Positions 12,644 to 19,661 of a stretch of 64,000 nt of DNA are shown here, in pieces. How positions within the stretch are numbered: the stretch's first letter is position 1; every line of letters begins with the position of its first letter. Origin of the DNA: Sporichthya polymorpha DSM 43042 (GTDB lineage: Bacteria; Actinomycetota; Actinomycetes; Sporichthyales; Sporichthyaceae); NCBI RefSeq assembly GCF_000384115.1, contig NZ_KB913029.1, positions 1,956,907 to 2,020,906 on the forward strand. Direction: 5' to 3'. The notes under the pieces are model-generated. The model did no database searches, was not told the DNA's origin, and was given only the letters and a program-made list of their open reading frames with translations. Made by a program: the position numbers and the translations under genes.

Positions 12644-13419
12644 CCACCATGATGATGATCCGTCAGTTGCTGGCCGGACTACGTCGCCGCCACGGCGACC
12701 GGGGTATCACGCTCGTGGAGATCATGACCTCGACCGTGCTGGCCGCGACGCTCGGCGGCATGGTGACCATGCTCGTGATCAGCACGCAACGGCAGACGGC
12801 CGCGGGCGAGATCCGCATGGCCGACCTCGACTCGGCCCGCGTCGGCATGGACGCCCTGACCCGCGTGCTGCGCACCGCGGTGCAGCCCGCGCAGCTCCAG
12901 GTCGGGTGCGGCAGCTGCATCGGACCGGCGTCCGTGTCGACCGCGCTGACGGCGGCGGAGGGCGACCGGCTGCAGTTGTTCGCGAACCTCGGTGACCCGA
13001 CCGGGCCGTTCCTGATCACCTTCGCCGCGGAGGAGGAGAACGGGAAGTGGGTGCTGACCCAGAAGACCCAGCGTCCGGACGTCGGCAGCGCGCCGAACTT
13101 CCGCTACACGCCGTGCATCCCGAAGCAAGCCGGGTGTCGGATCAGCGTCCGTACCCTCGTGCGCGGGCTGGACTGGCCGTCTCCGACACCGATGTTCGTG
13201 TACCGCGACAACGCCGCCGACGTGCTCACCCCGCCGGGGGCTCGCCCGGGCCTGACGCCGGATCAGCTCCTGATTGTCGACTCGATCGACATCACCCTGC
13301 CGGTCCGTACCCCGAACGGTGTCGGTGCCGGCGGGTTCCTGTCCGCAACCCGCGTGACACTGCCCAACGCCTCCACGTCCGTGCTCGCCACGGCCGTTCC
13401 GGTGCCAGAGCCGTCATGA
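12640..13419 (+). CDS. PilW-like minor prepilin, module C
   Basis: A 259-residue minor pilin with signal DRG|ITLVE (Ile at +1), helix MTSTVLAATLGGMVTMLVI and 'RVGMDALTRVLRTAVQPAQLQ', which aligns with the module A protein (RVALDAVTKSLRTAVRPEQIN). It also shares a Cys-x-x-Cys pair (CGSC against CATNC) and the later 'TLVRGLDWP' / 'VLARGLTWP' motif, so the two are clear paralogues. The GTG start overlaps the previous stop, and the stop overlaps the next ATG. Confidence 0.85.
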   Translation: MTTMMMIRQLLAGLRRRHGDRGITLVEIMTSTVLAATLGGMVTMLVISTQRQTAAGEIRMADLDSARVGMDALTRVLRTAVQPAQLQVGCGSCIGPASVSTALTAAEGDRLQLFANLGDPTGPFLITFAAEEENGKWVLTQKTQRPDVGSAPNFRYTPCIPKQAGCRISVRTLVRGLDWPSPTPMFVYRDNAADVLTPPGARPGLTPDQLLIVDSIDITLPVRTPNGVGAGGFLSATRVTLPNASTSVLATAVPVPEPS

Positions 13420-15158
13420 CGGAACGCCTGCGCGCACTGCTGGAGCGCCATCGCCGCAACGACGCCGGCATGAGCATGATCCTCGTGCTCGGCTACGGGA
13501 CCATTCTCTCGCTCATGCTCGGCCTACTGACCGACCGAGCGATCGAGTCGATGTCGGACGCGCGGCGCAGCACCGACTACCACGCGGCGCTCGCAGCCGC
13601 CCAGGCCGGCGTCGACGACTACGTCTCGCGCCTGAATGCCAACAACGTCTACTGGCAGACTCTCGACTGCTCGAACCTCGCGATGCGCCGGCCCCTGGGC
13701 GGAGCTTGCGGGTGGGGGGCGAGCACTGCGATCGGATGGGTTCCGGTGCCCGGAGCCCGCGACCCGAAGGGCGTCCTCTGCTCCACCACGCCGACCCCGC
13801 TGAACTGCGCGCGTTACCACTACGAGGCGGACACCTCGTCGACCGGGACGAACGGCTCGATCACCGTGGTGTCGACGGGGAAGGTGCGCGACGAGACGCG
13901 CACGGTCCGGGTCGTCGTGCAGCGCAAGGGTTTCGGTGACTTCCTCTACTACTCCGACATCGAGTCCACGGACCCGGCGAACACCTACGTGTACGACGGC
14001 AACCCGATGAGCAGCTCGCAGGCGGCCGTGTACTGCGCGCGCTACTACTGGGGCTCGCCGGCGCGGAACTCGTCCTGCCAGGACATCCAGTTCATCACCG
14101 GTGACCGCATCAACGGCCCGCTGCACAGCAACGACGCGATCCTGCTCCAGGGCAACCCGGTGTTCGCCGGCACCGCCTCGACCGCGTGGCCGAACTGCGC
14201 GCCGAGCTCGAACGGCAAGCCCAAGCCGGTCGCGAACTGCTACCGCGCGAACGGCACGGCGAACCCGACCTTCGCGCGCAGCCTCACCTACCTCGGCATG
14301 ATCACGCTGCCGCCGTCGAACACCAGCCTCCGCTCCCAGACCGTGGCCGCCACCAGCGTCGGCACCCCTGGATGTCTGTTCACGGGACCGACCCGGATCA
14401 AGTTCGAGTCGAACGGCAAGATGCGGGTCTGGAGCCCGTACACCCTGACCAGCCCGGCCACCTGCGGCGGCAACAAGCCGGACAACGTCCAGGTGAACGT
14501 GCCCGACAACAACGTGATCTACGTGCAGAACCTGCCGGCGACGCAGTCCTCGCCGAAGGCCAGTGCCGCGTGCAGCGTCAAGACCCTTCTCGACCTCACC
14601 ACCGCGTCCAACCCGGACAACTCCGTCGCGAAGTACTCCTGCCGGGACGGGAACGCGTTCGTCAGTGGAATCCTCAAGGGCCGTGTGACGATCGGTGCCG
14701 ACAACAACATCTACGTGACGGACAACCAGACCTACGCCACCGGCCACAACGGCAACGACAGTCTCGGGCTGGTCGCGAACAACTCGGTGCTGATCTGGCA
14801 CCCGATGTCCTGCAACTCGTGCGACACCATCAACGAGCTGCGTGGCGCCACGGATCTGTACCCGAACCGGCCGAAGACCTTGAAGCTGGAGGCCGCGATC
14901 CTCTCCCTGCAGCACAGCTTCGGCGTCGAGCTCTACAACATGGGCGCACCGCTGGACAACCTGCAGGTGTACGGCTCGATCTCGCAGAAGTACCGCGGGG
15001 CGGTGGGGACGACCGGGTCCGGATGGCGGACCGGGTACCTCAAGGACTACAACTACGACACCCGCCTGCGGTACGCCCCGCCGCCGTTCTACCTCAACCC
15101 GGTGCAAACCGCGTTCGGCCAGGCCACGTTTGCGGAGATCCCCGCCGCGTACTCCTGA
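13416..15158 (+). CDS. PilX-like pilus assembly protein, module C
   Basis: A 580-residue paralogue of the 681-residue module A protein. The basic start is followed by AGMSMILVLGYGTILSLMLG and 'ALAAAQAGVDDYVSRLNA'. Shared downstream motifs include RTVRVVVQRKGFGDFLYYS (KVTLKKRGFTDYLYFS in module A), GPTRIKF and VWSPYT. It has many Cys and Asn residues, consistent with a disulfide-rich secreted domain. It lacks a canonical prepilin site, like the other X subunits. Last gene of module C. Confidence 0.8.
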   Translation: MTERLRALLERHRRNDAGMSMILVLGYGTILSLMLGLLTDRAIESMSDARRSTDYHAALAAAQAGVDDYVSRLNANNVYWQTLDCSNLAMRRPLGGACGWGASTAIGWVPVPGARDPKGVLCSTTPTPLNCARYHYEADTSSTGTNGSITVVSTGKVRDETRTVRVVVQRKGFGDFLYYSDIESTDPANTYVYDGNPMSSSQAAVYCARYYWGSPARNSSCQDIQFITGDRINGPLHSNDAILLQGNPVFAGTASTAWPNCAPSSNGKPKPVANCYRANGTANPTFARSLTYLGMITLPPSNTSLRSQTVAATSVGTPGCLFTGPTRIKFESNGKMRVWSPYTLTSPATCGGNKPDNVQVNVPDNNVIYVQNLPATQSSPKASAACSVKTLLDLTTASNPDNSVAKYSCRDGNAFVSGILKGRVTIGADNNIYVTDNQTYATGHNGNDSLGLVANNSVLIWHPMSCNSCDTINELRGATDLYPNRPKTLKLEAAILSLQHSFGVELYNMGAPLDNLQVYGSISQKYRGAVGTTGSGWRTGYLKDYNYDTRLRYAPPPFYLNPVQTAFGQATFAEIPAAYS

Positions 15159-15163
15159 GCTGC

Positions 15164-15178
15164 GGGACCTTCGGCCCT
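15164..15178 (+). promoter_or_regulatory. Candidate DosR/DevR box
   Basis: GGGACCTTCGGCCCT, an inverted-repeat core of the DosR box type (GGGAC-N-GNCCC), 50 bp before the nitroreductase start. Gene content downstream (Acg-like nitroreductase and DevS-like GAF kinase fragment) supports a Dos-type hypoxia/redox regulon, but no DosR response regulator is in the window. Confidence 0.5.
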
Positions 15179-15227
15179 GTGTTCCGCGCTCGCCGGCGGC
15201 GACCATGGAACGGCCAGTGAGCGGAAG

Positions 15228-16145
15228 GTGTCCATGACCGTCGAGCACGACCGCACACCGGATCTGACCCGGGTGCTGCCGGCGGTGCTGCGCCGCGCGG
15301 CCGTCCGGGCGACGCTCGCCGCCTCGGTGCGGAACAGCCAGCCCTGGCGGCTGGTGCTCCACCCGGACCGACTGGTGGTGCGCGCCGACCGGTCCCGTCG
15401 GCTGCCTGTCTTTGATCCGACGGGGCGTCAGCTCCTGCTCAGCTGCGGCGCCGCGGTCTTCAACGCCCGGGTCGCCCTCGCGGCGGCCGGGATCGGTGAC
15501 GAGGTGACCTGGGGCCCCGACGCCTTGGGCACCGGGGACGTCGACGACCTCGCAATGCTGCGCCCGGCACCGGACATCACCGACCCGGACCTCGTCCTGG
15601 CCGGTCTGGACTGGGCCACGCTGCGGCGGCGGTCCTCGTGGGGCCCGTTCACCACCCCGGCCGAGCCGGCCCTCGTCGCGGCCCTCGTCGCGGCTGCGAG
15701 GGCCGAAGGAGCTGATCTGGTCGCGATGGACCCCGCGGCGGCCGCCCGAGCCGCCCGCGTGGCCGCGGTCGTGCTGGACGCCGACGCGGCCTACCTCGCC
15801 GAGCTGCGGGCCTGGCGGGCCGGGGCGACGTGGATTCCTGACGACCTGGACTGGCGGACGAGCACGTGTCTGGTCCTCAGCACCCCCACCGACAGCCCCG
15901 CGGCCTGGCTGCGCGCGGGAGAGGCGCTGCAGCGTGTCCTGCTGACCGCGACCGCGCTCGACACGGCCGCGCACGTGCTGAGCCTGCCGATCGAGGTCCC
16001 GGCCGCCCGGCACATGGTCGAGGTTGCCGCCGGCTGTCCCGGGTACGCCCACCTCGTGGTGCGCGTCGGATGCGCGCCCGCAGCGCCCGCCTCGGCCCGC
16101 CGTCGCCTGGTGGACGTCATCCGCACGGTGGGAGCGGGGACATGA
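15228..16145 (+). CDS. Nitroreductase family protein (Acg/Rv2032-like)
   Basis: A 305-residue protein of the Acg-type nitroreductase-like family. The N-terminal half carries the FMN-binding signature ASVRNSQPWRL and 'DRSRRLPVFDPTGRQLLLSCGAAVFNARV', typical of mycobacterial Acg and relatives. These proteins sequester FMN, form a lid over the site and belong to the DosR dormancy regulon. The second half contains SLPIEVPAARHMVE. The start is GTG 15228 or ATG 15234. The stop overlaps the ATG of the GAF kinase fragment, so they form an operon, with a candidate DosR box upstream. Confidence 0.85.
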   Translation: MSMTVEHDRTPDLTRVLPAVLRRAAVRATLAASVRNSQPWRLVLHPDRLVVRADRSRRLPVFDPTGRQLLLSCGAAVFNARVALAAAGIGDEVTWGPDALGTGDVDDLAMLRPAPDITDPDLVLAGLDWATLRRRSSWGPFTTPAEPALVAALVAAARAEGADLVAMDPAAAARAARVAAVVLDADAAYLAELRAWRAGATWIPDDLDWRTSTCLVLSTPTDSPAAWLRAGEALQRVLLTATALDTAAHVLSLPIEVPAARHMVEVAAGCPGYAHLVVRVGCAPAAPASARRRLVDVIRTVGAGT

Positions 16146-16924
16146 ACAACCTGGAGACCTCCGCGGACGGCCTCGCGCTGTACGCCGCCGAGCAGCGGCG
16201 CCGCGAGTGGCTCCAGGCGTCCATCGAGGTGACGCGCAGCCTGCTCTCCGTCGGCGGGGAGGAGCCCCTACACGCCGTCGCGCGGGCCGCGAACTCGATC
16301 GCCGGCGCGGACATCACGCTGGTCCTGCTGCCCACACCCGCGGGCGACGAGCTGATGATCGAGGTCGCGCACGGGGAGAACACCGAGGACCTCGTCGGCG
16401 TCGTCGTCGACGCCCAGCACTCGATCTCGGGCGAGGTGATCCGCACCGGGCAACCGGTGCTGGCCGCCGACGTTGCCGAGCGCCCCAACGGCGTCGAGCA
16501 GGTCCGTCGCAGCGGTCCGATGGTGATGGTCGGCCCGGTCATGGTCGTCCCGCTCTTCGGCGAGCAGGGCGCCCGCGGGGCTCTTCTGATCGCGCGCACG
16601 TGCGGTGGGGAGCCCTTCGACCACGAGGACCTCGAGCTCGCGACCTCGTTCGCGAACCACGCCGCCGTCGCCCTCGAGCTCGCCGACGCCCGCGAGTCCC
16701 AGCAGCGCATGATCCTGTTGGAGGACCGCCACCGCATCGCTGCCGACCTGCACGACCACGTCCTGCAGCGCCTCTTCGCCGCCGGCATGACGATGCAGGC
16801 GATGACGGCGTCCGTCGGCGCCCCCCACGCCGACCGGCTCGAGGAGCTCATCACCGACACCGACGAGACCATCGCCCAGATCCGCGCCGTCATCCACGAC
16901 CTGAACGACCTGCGCTCGTTCTAG
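16142..16924 (+). CDS. DevS-like GAF/HisKA_3 sensor lacking the ATPase domain
   Basis: A 260-residue protein with a GAF domain (about 40-180), then the dimerisation/phosphoacceptor helix RIAADLHDHVLQRLF with His204, as in DevS/DosT kinases. It stops at residue 260, where the HATPase_c domain would begin. No N, G1 or G2 box is present, and only 6 bp separate the stop from a strong hairpin. It could be a phosphotransfer or dimerising sensor that depends on another kinase's ATPase, a dominant-negative subunit, or a decayed kinase. The good reading frame and overlap with the nitroreductase gene argue against simple decay. Confidence 0.8.
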   Translation: MNNLETSADGLALYAAEQRRREWLQASIEVTRSLLSVGGEEPLHAVARAANSIAGADITLVLLPTPAGDELMIEVAHGENTEDLVGVVVDAQHSISGEVIRTGQPVLAADVAERPNGVEQVRRSGPMVMVGPVMVVPLFGEQGARGALLIARTCGGEPFDHEDLELATSFANHAAVALELADARESQQRMILLEDRHRIAADLHDHVLQRLFAAGMTMQAMTASVGAPHADRLEELITDTDETIAQIRAVIHDLNDLRSF

Positions 16925-16930
16925 CCGTTG

Positions 16931-16974
16931 ACGTCCGAAGAAGTGGCTGCTGTTGCAGCCACTTCTTCGGACGT
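16931..16974. terminator. Bidirectional 20-bp hairpin (element copy 2)
   Basis: Perfect 20-bp stem (16931-16950 with 16955-16974) and a TGTT loop between two convergent genes. The left arm ACGTCCGAAGAAGTGGCTGC matches the element at 137 in 18 of 20 positions. The two substitutions in the stem are both compensated, so either the hairpin is selected or the sequence is a palindromic element. Confidence 0.85.
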
Positions 16975-16982
16975 AAGGGCAG

Positions 16983-18200
16983 TTACTGGATGAGGTCGAA
17001 GATCTTGAAGATCGGGAGGTACAGGGCGACGATCATCGACCCGACGACGGTGCCGAGGAAGGCGATCATCAGCGGCTCGATGAGGGCGGTCAGAGACTCG
17101 GTGGTCGCCTCGACCTCCTGGTCGTAGAACTCGCCGATCTTGCCGAGCATGTCGTCGAGGGCGCCGGTCTCCTCACCGGAGGCCATCATGTGCACGACCA
17201 TCGACGGGAAGACCTCGTGCTGGCTGAGCGGGCCGGAGATGGACTCACCGGACTTCACCGAGTCCTTCACCTGCTCCAGGGCGCGACTGATGACGACGTT
17301 GCCGCTGGAGTCACCGGTGATCTCGAGGGCGGTGAGGATCGGGACGCCGGACTTGAGCAGCGTGCTCAGCGTCCGCGCGAACCGGGCGAGCGCGACCTTC
17401 TGGAAGAGCTTGCCGAAGACGGGCAGCTTCAGCTTGAGCGGGTCGACGACGTTGCGCACCTGCTCGGTCTGGCCGTACTTCCGCCAGGCCCACAGGCCGG
17501 CGACGGTGAGGATCGCCAGCATCGGTGCCAGGAACTTCATCCATCCCGAGAGCGTGACGAGGATTCGCGTCGGGAGCGGCAGGGTGCCACCCAGGGTGGC
17601 GAACATGTCCTTGAAGATCGGCACGACGAACAGCAGCATGCCGATGACCATGAGGATGGCGAGGATCAGTACGACGACCGGATAGGTCATCGCGGCCTTG
17701 ATCTTGCCGCGGAGCTTGACCTCGGACTCGAAGTTGTCGGCGATCTGACGCATGCTCTGGTCGAGGAAGCCGCCGGCCTCACCGGCACGGACCATGCTGA
17801 CCATCAGCGGCGGGAACACCTTGGGGTGCTTCGCGAACGCTGCCGAGATCGACGAGCCGGCTTCGACGTCGGTCTTCACCAGGCGCAGGACGCGCTTGAG
17901 CTCACCGTTCTCCGACTGCTCCGACAGGATCGTCAGCGTGCGCAGCATCGACAGGCCCGCGTTGATCATCGTCGCGAACTGGCGCGAGAAGATCGCGAGA
18001 TCCTTGAGCTTCACGCGCTCGCGACCGAACAGGCGGATCTCCCGGTCCAGACCGGTGTTCGCCTGCTTGATCTCCAGCGGGCGGTAGCCCATCGACCGGA
18101 GCTTGTCGGCGACCGCGCTCTCGCTGTCGGCCTCGACCTTGCCCTCGACCAGCTTCCCGCGGTTGTCCTTGACCTTGTACGCGTACTGCGTTGCTGCCAT
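16983..18200 (-). CDS. pilC: Type IV pilus inner-membrane platform protein PilC
   Basis: A 405-residue T2SSF/PilC-family platform protein. Two T2SSF repeats are visible: the first from about residue 68 (LAIFSRQFATMINAGLSMLRTL) with GEAGGFLD, the second from about 270 (ARTLSTLLKSGVPILTALE) with GEETGALDDML. Hydrophobic segments are near 165-190, 215-235 and at the C-terminus (about 370-400). The N-terminus YAYKVKDNRGKLVEG is the standard PilC start. It couples the PilB and PilT motors to the growing filament. It lies 53 bp downstream of pilT on the same strand. Confidence 0.95.
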   Translation of the reverse strand: MAATQYAYKVKDNRGKLVEGKVEADSESAVADKLRSMGYRPLEIKQANTGLDREIRLFGRERVKLKDLAIFSRQFATMINAGLSMLRTLTILSEQSENGELKRVLRLVKTDVEAGSSISAAFAKHPKVFPPLMVSMVRAGEAGGFLDQSMRQIADNFESEVKLRGKIKAAMTYPVVVLILAILMVIGMLLFVVPIFKDMFATLGGTLPLPTRILVTLSGWMKFLAPMLAILTVAGLWAWRKYGQTEQVRNVVDPLKLKLPVFGKLFQKVALARFARTLSTLLKSGVPILTALEITGDSSGNVVISRALEQVKDSVKSGESISGPLSQHEVFPSMVVHMMASGEETGALDDMLGKIGEFYDQEVEATTESLTALIEPLMIAFLGTVVGSMIVALYLPIFKIFDLIQ

Positions 18201-19603: not shown

Positions 19604-19632
19604 TTTTCGTCCTCCGGAGGCCGGGCCTTGAG
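19604..19632 (-). promoter_or_regulatory. WhiG/sigma-28-like promoter of pilT1-pilC
   Basis: Minus strand: CTCAAG (19627-19632), 15-nt spacer, GACGAAAA (19604-19611; 6 of 8 to GCCGATAA). The -35 box and spacing agree with the other pilus promoters, but the -10 box is the most divergent of the set. Confidence 0.45.
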
Positions 19633-19661
19633 TCCCGACGCGAACCCGATGCGATCCGGAC

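Follow-up and report, generated by a model that had tools for sequence, protein, structure and literature searches.

Organization of the locus

The window analysed here, a stretch of 64,000 nucleotides, corresponds to positions 1956907-2020906 of the 5.50-Mb single-contig genome of Sporichthya polymorpha (G000). G001 and G002 denote its two congeners, G004 a genome of the sister genus, and L-numbers are extracted loci. A DosR/DevR-type box in the window is followed by the genes for an Acg-like nitroreductase and for a 260-residue GAF-HisKA_3 protein (to be referred to as the half kinase), with the motif DLHDHVLQ and no HATPase_c domain (Table 1). Pattern matching and Pfam confirmed these features, all of which were part of the original prediction for this DNA.

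Table 1. Positions of the features discussed. Coordinates without a locus label are those of the window.
Feature	Location	Strand	Remarks
Pilus-assembly-like gene, upstream	13047..15158	+	limits of the open reading frame; true start probably internal
DosR/DevR-type box GGGACCTTCGGCCC	15164..15177	+	exact pattern match; at this locus, G002 has the same box and G001 differs by one base
Acg-like nitroreductase, 303 aa	15234..16145	+	ATG start; GTG at 15228 a possible alternative
GAF-HisKA_3 half kinase, 260 aa	16142..16924	+	from ATG at 16142 to TAG; its start and the nitroreductase stop overlap as ATGA
GAF domain, residues 41-179, DevS GAF-B type	16262..16678	+	over the Pfam cut-off; closest structure 2vjw/2vks
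HisKA_3 DHp domain, residues 196-255, with H204, D205 and Q209	16727..16906	+	over the Pfam cut-off
Perfect 20-bp hairpin	16931..16974		lies where the half-kinase and pilC genes converge
pilC-like gene, convergent neighbor	16983..18200	-	anchors the locus in the comparison with G001
Second DHp protein without an ATPase in the genus	L165:5474-6565; L164:4701-5804; L162:4333-4626	-; +; +	

From their sequences, we take the two flanking genes to be of the pilus-assembly and pilC types. In G002, too, the box comes after the end of the upstream gene. The hairpin has a 4-nt loop, with -44.3 kcal/mol computed over a 61-nt stretch, and is probably a two-way terminator. At the window locus, neither a devR gene, nor another response regulator gene, nor a stand-alone receiver gene adjoins the half kinase, whose neighbors are the pilus-type genes and the nitroreductase.

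The exact pattern GGGACYWWNGNCCC occurs in the window only as this box, while 7 sites are found with one mismatch allowed, compared to 2.56 expected. Genome-wide there are 13 exact hits at 10 distinct places, with palindromes counted twice, versus 6 hits for the reversed-pattern control. The occurrence of the box was rejected as sole proof of regulation on the basis of this control, and a looser pattern, GGGACNNNNGNCCC, proved useless (146 hits versus 115 in the control). Since occurrence is weak evidence, the support for the box rests on its conservation in both congeners. It is kept in all three species, also where the nitroreductase is absent, and the half-kinase locus thus has the conserved upstream box that marks members of a DosR regulon. 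Twelve of 16 positions (counted by hand) agree between the box and the OsdR consensus AGGGCCGATCGGCCCT given in PMC5069765.

Domain structure of the half kinase

Both the GAF and the HisKA_3 domains score above the Pfam cut-offs (38.8 bits for HisKA_3, cut-off 24), with nothing detected after them. The phosphoacceptor is H204, so that the protein has the DHp domain with a phosphoacceptor histidine that defines HisKA_3 kinases. The second GAF domain of Mycobacterium smegmatis DevS is the closest solved match both by sequence and by structure. Because this one GAF is of the GAF-B type, the half kinase lacks the N-terminal heme-binding GAF-A. The protein had been described as stopping before the ATPase domain, which is correct for the ATPase but an incomplete account, as GAF-A is absent too. 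What is left, GAF-B followed by DHp, is the arrangement found in DevS and DosT.

A single-chain AlphaFold model (76 sequences, mean pLDDT 90.2) has an N-terminal helix, the GAF domain, a long helix (residues 161-222) that carries H204, and a second helix (residues 227-259). According to this model, the half kinase holds a complete DHp hairpin and ends where the ATPase linker would begin. An HPt protein, a single-chain four-helix bundle, was considered and rejected, as the model has instead a two-helix DHp hairpin after the GAF domain.

H204, D205 and Q209 are intact in all three short forms of the genus (see below) and in 96 of 96 ATPase-bearing relatives. The DHp-ATPase junction has drifted in the short forms, with V250 and H252 compared to T/S/A and F/Y, respectively, each in 95 of the 96 full kinases. 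With its phosphoacceptor histidine kept and its ATPase lost, the protein has the composition of a kinase-derived phosphotransferase.

No convincing HATPase homology is present downstream of the half kinase in any frame, with the ATPase domain of the organism's own DevS as the probe. The same probe detects the ATPase domains of L046 and L047, as well as remnants in L153 and L050. The stop and the short end are common to the three genomes (the G002 contig extends 160 bases beyond the stop, and the downstream context there is seen only that far). A truncation by frameshift or assembly error is thereby ruled out, and the clean end at a hairpin noted earlier holds up. On this evidence, the half kinase is not a broken gene.

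The missing domain could in principle be supplied in trans by a separate, stand-alone ATPase protein, as in a split kinase. Two stand-alone HATPase genes exist in G000 (at 2350417 and 3099119), but both score best to HATPase_c_2, presumably an anti-sigma-type family, and not to HATPase_c, and both are unlinked to the half kinase, hundreds of kb away or more. This is the least probable of the explanations considered.

Conservation of the short form in the genus

A full-length kinase at this locus in relatives, with the short form unconserved, would have spoken against the original prediction. The objection does not hold, as the short form is present at the same locus in both congeners (89% and 69% identity), with no full-length kinase there. 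The G002 protein has 260 residues and ends in LNDLRSF, and that of G001 has 268 residues and ends in LNDLGPGLFSET. The sample of the genus consists of three genomes, two of them drafts. Among 60 relatives searched, 55 have some match, and near-full-length matches are found only in the two congeners. When the search was widened to 393 genomes of the class, matches were obtained in 327, and those listed outside the genus are all in open frames of at least 472 residues, frame length being only a proxy for a complete kinase. In a quick tree, with branch support by SH-aLRT only, the three short forms branch together on a single, strongly supported stem among DevS-like kinases.

The codon comparison gives a dN/dS of 0.165 for G000-G002, and of 0.40 and 0.39 for G000-G001 and G002-G001, respectively. 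By domain, the G000-G001 values are 0.175 for DHp and 0.45 for GAF, and the order is reversed in the closest pair, G000-G002 (0.225 for DHp, 0.115 for GAF). These ratios indicate that the half kinase is under purifying selection, strongest on the DHp domain over the longer distance.

Alternatively, the gene might be a functionless remainder of a DevS-like kinase in the course of decay. ATPase loss does recur, with the remnants in L153 (G000) and L050 (sister genus). However, the ratios of 0.165 and 0.40 already largely refute this reading; moreover, the frame is intact in three species, the box and the motif are conserved, and the gene outlasts its operon partner. A relic is therefore very improbable.

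The nitroreductase partner

The best solved relative of the nitroreductase is Acg (2ymv, E 1e-12), in line with its earlier description as Acg-like. It does not reach the curated cut-offs, however, with 21.4 bits for Pfam Nitroreductase (cut-off 23.5) and 193.2 bits for the NCBIfam 'Acg family' (cut-off 199). By homology it is thus Acg-like, just below both thresholds.

G000 has three nitroreductases of the Acg-like family. In G001, G002, G003 and G004 no member was found, so that G000 is the only one of the five family genomes searched with such a gene. In G002, the box, the leader and the nitroreductase start are kept, and the frame consists of only MTVERDRAPGAGA and a stop. Its last codons are those of the end of the G000 nitroreductase, and the ATGA overlap with the kinase start is found again. 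The difference between the two species amounts to 870 bases (290 codons), in frame. In G001, the nitroreductase start (MTVEQDR) is fused to the half kinase.

An obligate pair of nitroreductase and half kinase was rejected, given the absence of the former from all four other family genomes. Whether the nitroreductase was lost in two species or gained in one, the constant unit in these genomes is the box and the half kinase, and the arrangement can do without the nitroreductase.

The Dos network of the genome

It had been proposed that the genome be searched for DosR and the box, and this search was productive. A complete DevS (GAF-GAF-HisKA_3-HATPase) is encoded at 2.67 Mb (L045:8070-9977), and its first GAF domain is best matched by DosT/DevS structures, of the heme-binding GAF-A type. 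The gene directly after it encodes DevR (closest solved match 3c3w DevR, E 2e-69). Next to the pair are two nitroreductase genes of the Acg family (271 and 231.5 bits) and universal-stress genes. DevR homologues are present at 2.67, 0.94 and 0.83 Mb, the two further DevR-like regulators having 76% and 58% identity. Exact boxes precede several genes of Dos type, namely a universal stress gene, a PAS-receiver gene, an Acg-like start beside a DevR homologue, and the window operon. At the remaining exact-box places there is no obvious Dos-type gene. The genes behind the boxes were named by their sequences, and the names are presumptive.

There are 14 HisKA_3 loci in G000, with an ATPase match just downstream in 12 of them; the two exceptions are the half kinase and L153. 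The first DHp helix of the half kinase is nearly the same as that of the organism's own DevS, with 16 of 18 positions identical. The corresponding numbers are 15 and 14 for two other DevS-like kinases, 12 for L011 (the same as L153) and at most 9 for the other nine loci, the figure being an upper bound where the best hit was not to the helix of the locus itself. Over the DHp domain, the half kinase is 50-59% identical to the full-length kinases of L045, L046 and L047.

Comparison with known systems and possible functions

DevS/DevR is a model switch for bacterial dormancy, and to our knowledge it is poorly understood how its signal is shut off or shaped. The half kinase shares with DevS/DosS and DosT of M. 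tuberculosis and OsdK of Streptomyces the GAF-B fold, the HisKA_3 DHp domain with HDHxxQ, and the DevR/box network. Unlike these kinases, it has no heme GAF-A and no ATPase, and it is not located beside a regulator gene. No paper on an ATPase-less DevS-like protein was found in open-licence full text.

The original prediction had the half kinase heterodimerize with, or accept phosphate from, a complete kinase, which is possible from the sequence. With D-xxx-Q intact, however, an action on DevR~P is at least as likely. In EnvZ domain A and the DHp domain of NarX, the phosphatase motif is located in the DHp domain, as it is in the half kinase (D-xxx-Q in HisKA_3), but these belong to complete kinases or were constructed in the laboratory, whereas the half kinase is a natural isolated unit. 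The D-xxx-Q motif is required for phosphatase activity in NarX, a HisKA_3 protein, according to PMC3510030, which also cites a paper titled on EnvZ phosphatase activity without the kinase catalytic domain.

The features that can be read from the DNA are the conservation of the locus, an intact H-D-xxx-Q core, the box, purifying selection, and a clean domain end. The explanation we tentatively prefer, though at somewhat less than even confidence, is that the half kinase is a stable auxiliary protein under control of the Dos box and modulates the response by feedback, draining or buffering DevR~P. A DevS-like kinase would have lost its heme GAF-A and its ATPase, and retained GAF-B and the complete DHp hairpin. 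DevR~P would switch on the box, and the half kinase so produced would dimerize through its DHp helices. Its helix 1, near-identical to that of DevS, would then dock DevR~P, and the phosphoryl group would be removed by D-xxx-Q phosphatase chemistry, by back-transfer to H204, or by both. The outcome would be a negative-feedback brake or a phosphate buffer on the dormancy response, and the GAF domain would gate phosphoryl removal on a putative ligand.

Several observations stand against this modulator function. The half kinase has no response regulator gene beside it, and in G000-G002, the closest pair, the GAF domain is under tighter constraint than the DHp. In addition, full phosphatase activity may depend on the ATPase domain in many HisKA_3 proteins. 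A phosphatase alone has no obvious need for H204, and the retention of this residue may point to phosphoryl acceptance or to kinase chemistry in a heterodimer.

The main alternative is a mixed dimer with the complete DevS or with two orphan DevS-like kinases, in which one ATPase phosphorylates H204 in trans or the dimer is held inactive. The 50-59% DHp identity to L045, L046 and L047 is consistent with such pairing, as is the retention of the GAF-B that precedes the DHp, which a pairing module would need. Moreover, the RetS-GacS heterodimer offers a precedent (PMC12189002). The diverged residues at the DHp-ATPase junction argue against mixed dimers, which paralogous kinases usually avoid, and we consider them rather unlikely. 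In the Pseudomonas aeruginosa case, a kinase-like protein is proposed to modulate another kinase by pairing or by siphoning phosphate. RetS is a full-size hybrid membrane kinase, whereas the ATPase of the half kinase is gone altogether.

Spo0B, ChpT and PhyT resemble the half kinase in being of the DHp dimer type, with no working ATPase and with the phosphoacceptor kept. Unlike them, the half kinase belongs to another DHp subfamily and has no proven relay partner. Acting as a DHp-type phosphotransferase of this kind, it would pass phosphate from the receiver partner of a DevS-like kinase to another response regulator. H204 is invariant, and each of the three genomes of the genus has a conserved DHp-only protein of membrane type, whose gene lies next to one for a stand-alone receiver, in a PhyT-SdrG layout. 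The window locus itself, however, has no such dedicated receiver. Furthermore, Spo0B, ChpT and PhyT keep a degenerate ATPase-like domain and the half kinase has none, which makes a relay function quite improbable. The PhyT-SdrG layout is described in PMC5898713, which speaks of degenerated kinases.

With a natural, selected piece of DevS that is controlled by the box of the regulator itself, negative feedback in this switch could be tested directly. The half kinase would also be a ready-made tool for separating phosphatase from kinase action in HisKA_3 proteins.

Other ATPase-less DHp proteins

The suggestion that relatives may have further GAF-HisKA_3 proteins without an ATPase was followed up beyond the two congeners. 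In Actinomycetospora, 9 of 15 loci inspected contain a GAF-GAF-DHp protein that ends right after the DHp (L128, L129, L130, L131, L132, L134, L138, L139 and L140, on the minus strand). There is one in each of nine species, lying on the opposite strand to a complete kinase; a tenth candidate, L125, is clipped by the locus edge. The histidine is lost in all nine (SLSEQVLQ or DLNAQVLQ types). A receiver-like frame follows the gene in L134. In the sister genus (L050), a GAF-HisKA_3 protein has the histidine and a shrunken ATPase remnant. ATPase loss is thus not unique to Sporichthya, and these sequences indicate that the histidine went where the phosphoacceptor became dispensable, yet was kept in this genus. 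The independent loss in Actinomycetospora, with the histidine also gone, offers a natural contrast.

Common ancestry of all ATPase-less forms is not supported, as the Actinomycetospora set is a separate clade without the histidine. The quick tree needs three changes of the ATPase-less label, of which the starred branches force only one. It has 106 rows and nine distinct ATPase-less genes, with the G004 gene present twice (L036 and L050), and excludes matches that are short, do not reach residue 240 or run off a contig.

A second half kinase is found in the genus. In G000 it is a 363-residue hydrophobic protein with a C-terminal DHp (TVHDDVLQ) that ends in ENLNDHLAAG. The G002 orthologue is 76% identical, and that of G001 is truncated to the DHp part (67%). 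The Pfam HisKA_3 score is below the cut-off (14 bits; 17.6 in G001), and the assignment as a DHp is therefore based on alignment and motif. All three genomes have a stand-alone receiver gene next to it, with Response_reg scores of 72 and 76 bits for the two tested. The G000 gene is near what we take to be flagellar and chemotaxis genes.

Three further proteins of related type were observed. L153:4537-6675 (+) in G000 encodes a PAS-HisKA_3 protein with an intact HDHVVQ and an ATPase remnant without the usual nucleotide-binding boxes. L045:14760-16289 (-), directly behind the box GGGACTTTCGGCCC, encodes two PAS domains, a DHp-like stretch without the histidine, and a fused receiver. L161:74-415 (+), near a contig start in G002, contains a GAF end and a DHp (ELHDQVLG), stops after the DHp, and is perhaps a decaying further half kinase.

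The genus might use a whole layer of ATPase-free DHp proteins for dormancy and motility, which would hold, drain or route phosphate from a few complete DevS-like kinases. It would consist of four types, the soluble Dos-box GAF-DHp protein, the membrane DHp with its receiver, the PAS-DHp with a dead ATPase, and the PAS-DHp-receiver without the histidine. Such a layer, in this composition, is rather unlikely.

Additional box-like palindromes

A box-like palindrome, GGGACTCAAGGCCC, is located upstream of a pilT-like gene in the window (19623-19636, minus strand) and is followed by a hairpin, and a similar one, GGGCCTCAAGACCC, is found at the matching place in G001. With the hairpin after the palindrome, the regulator of the half-kinase box may also control pilus retraction. 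Elsewhere in the genome, a perfect palindromic box, GGGACTTTGGTCCC, lies at G000:C1:977413-977426 between genes that we take to be sigma-factor-like and FlgN-like, and its position suggests that this regulator is also connected with motility.
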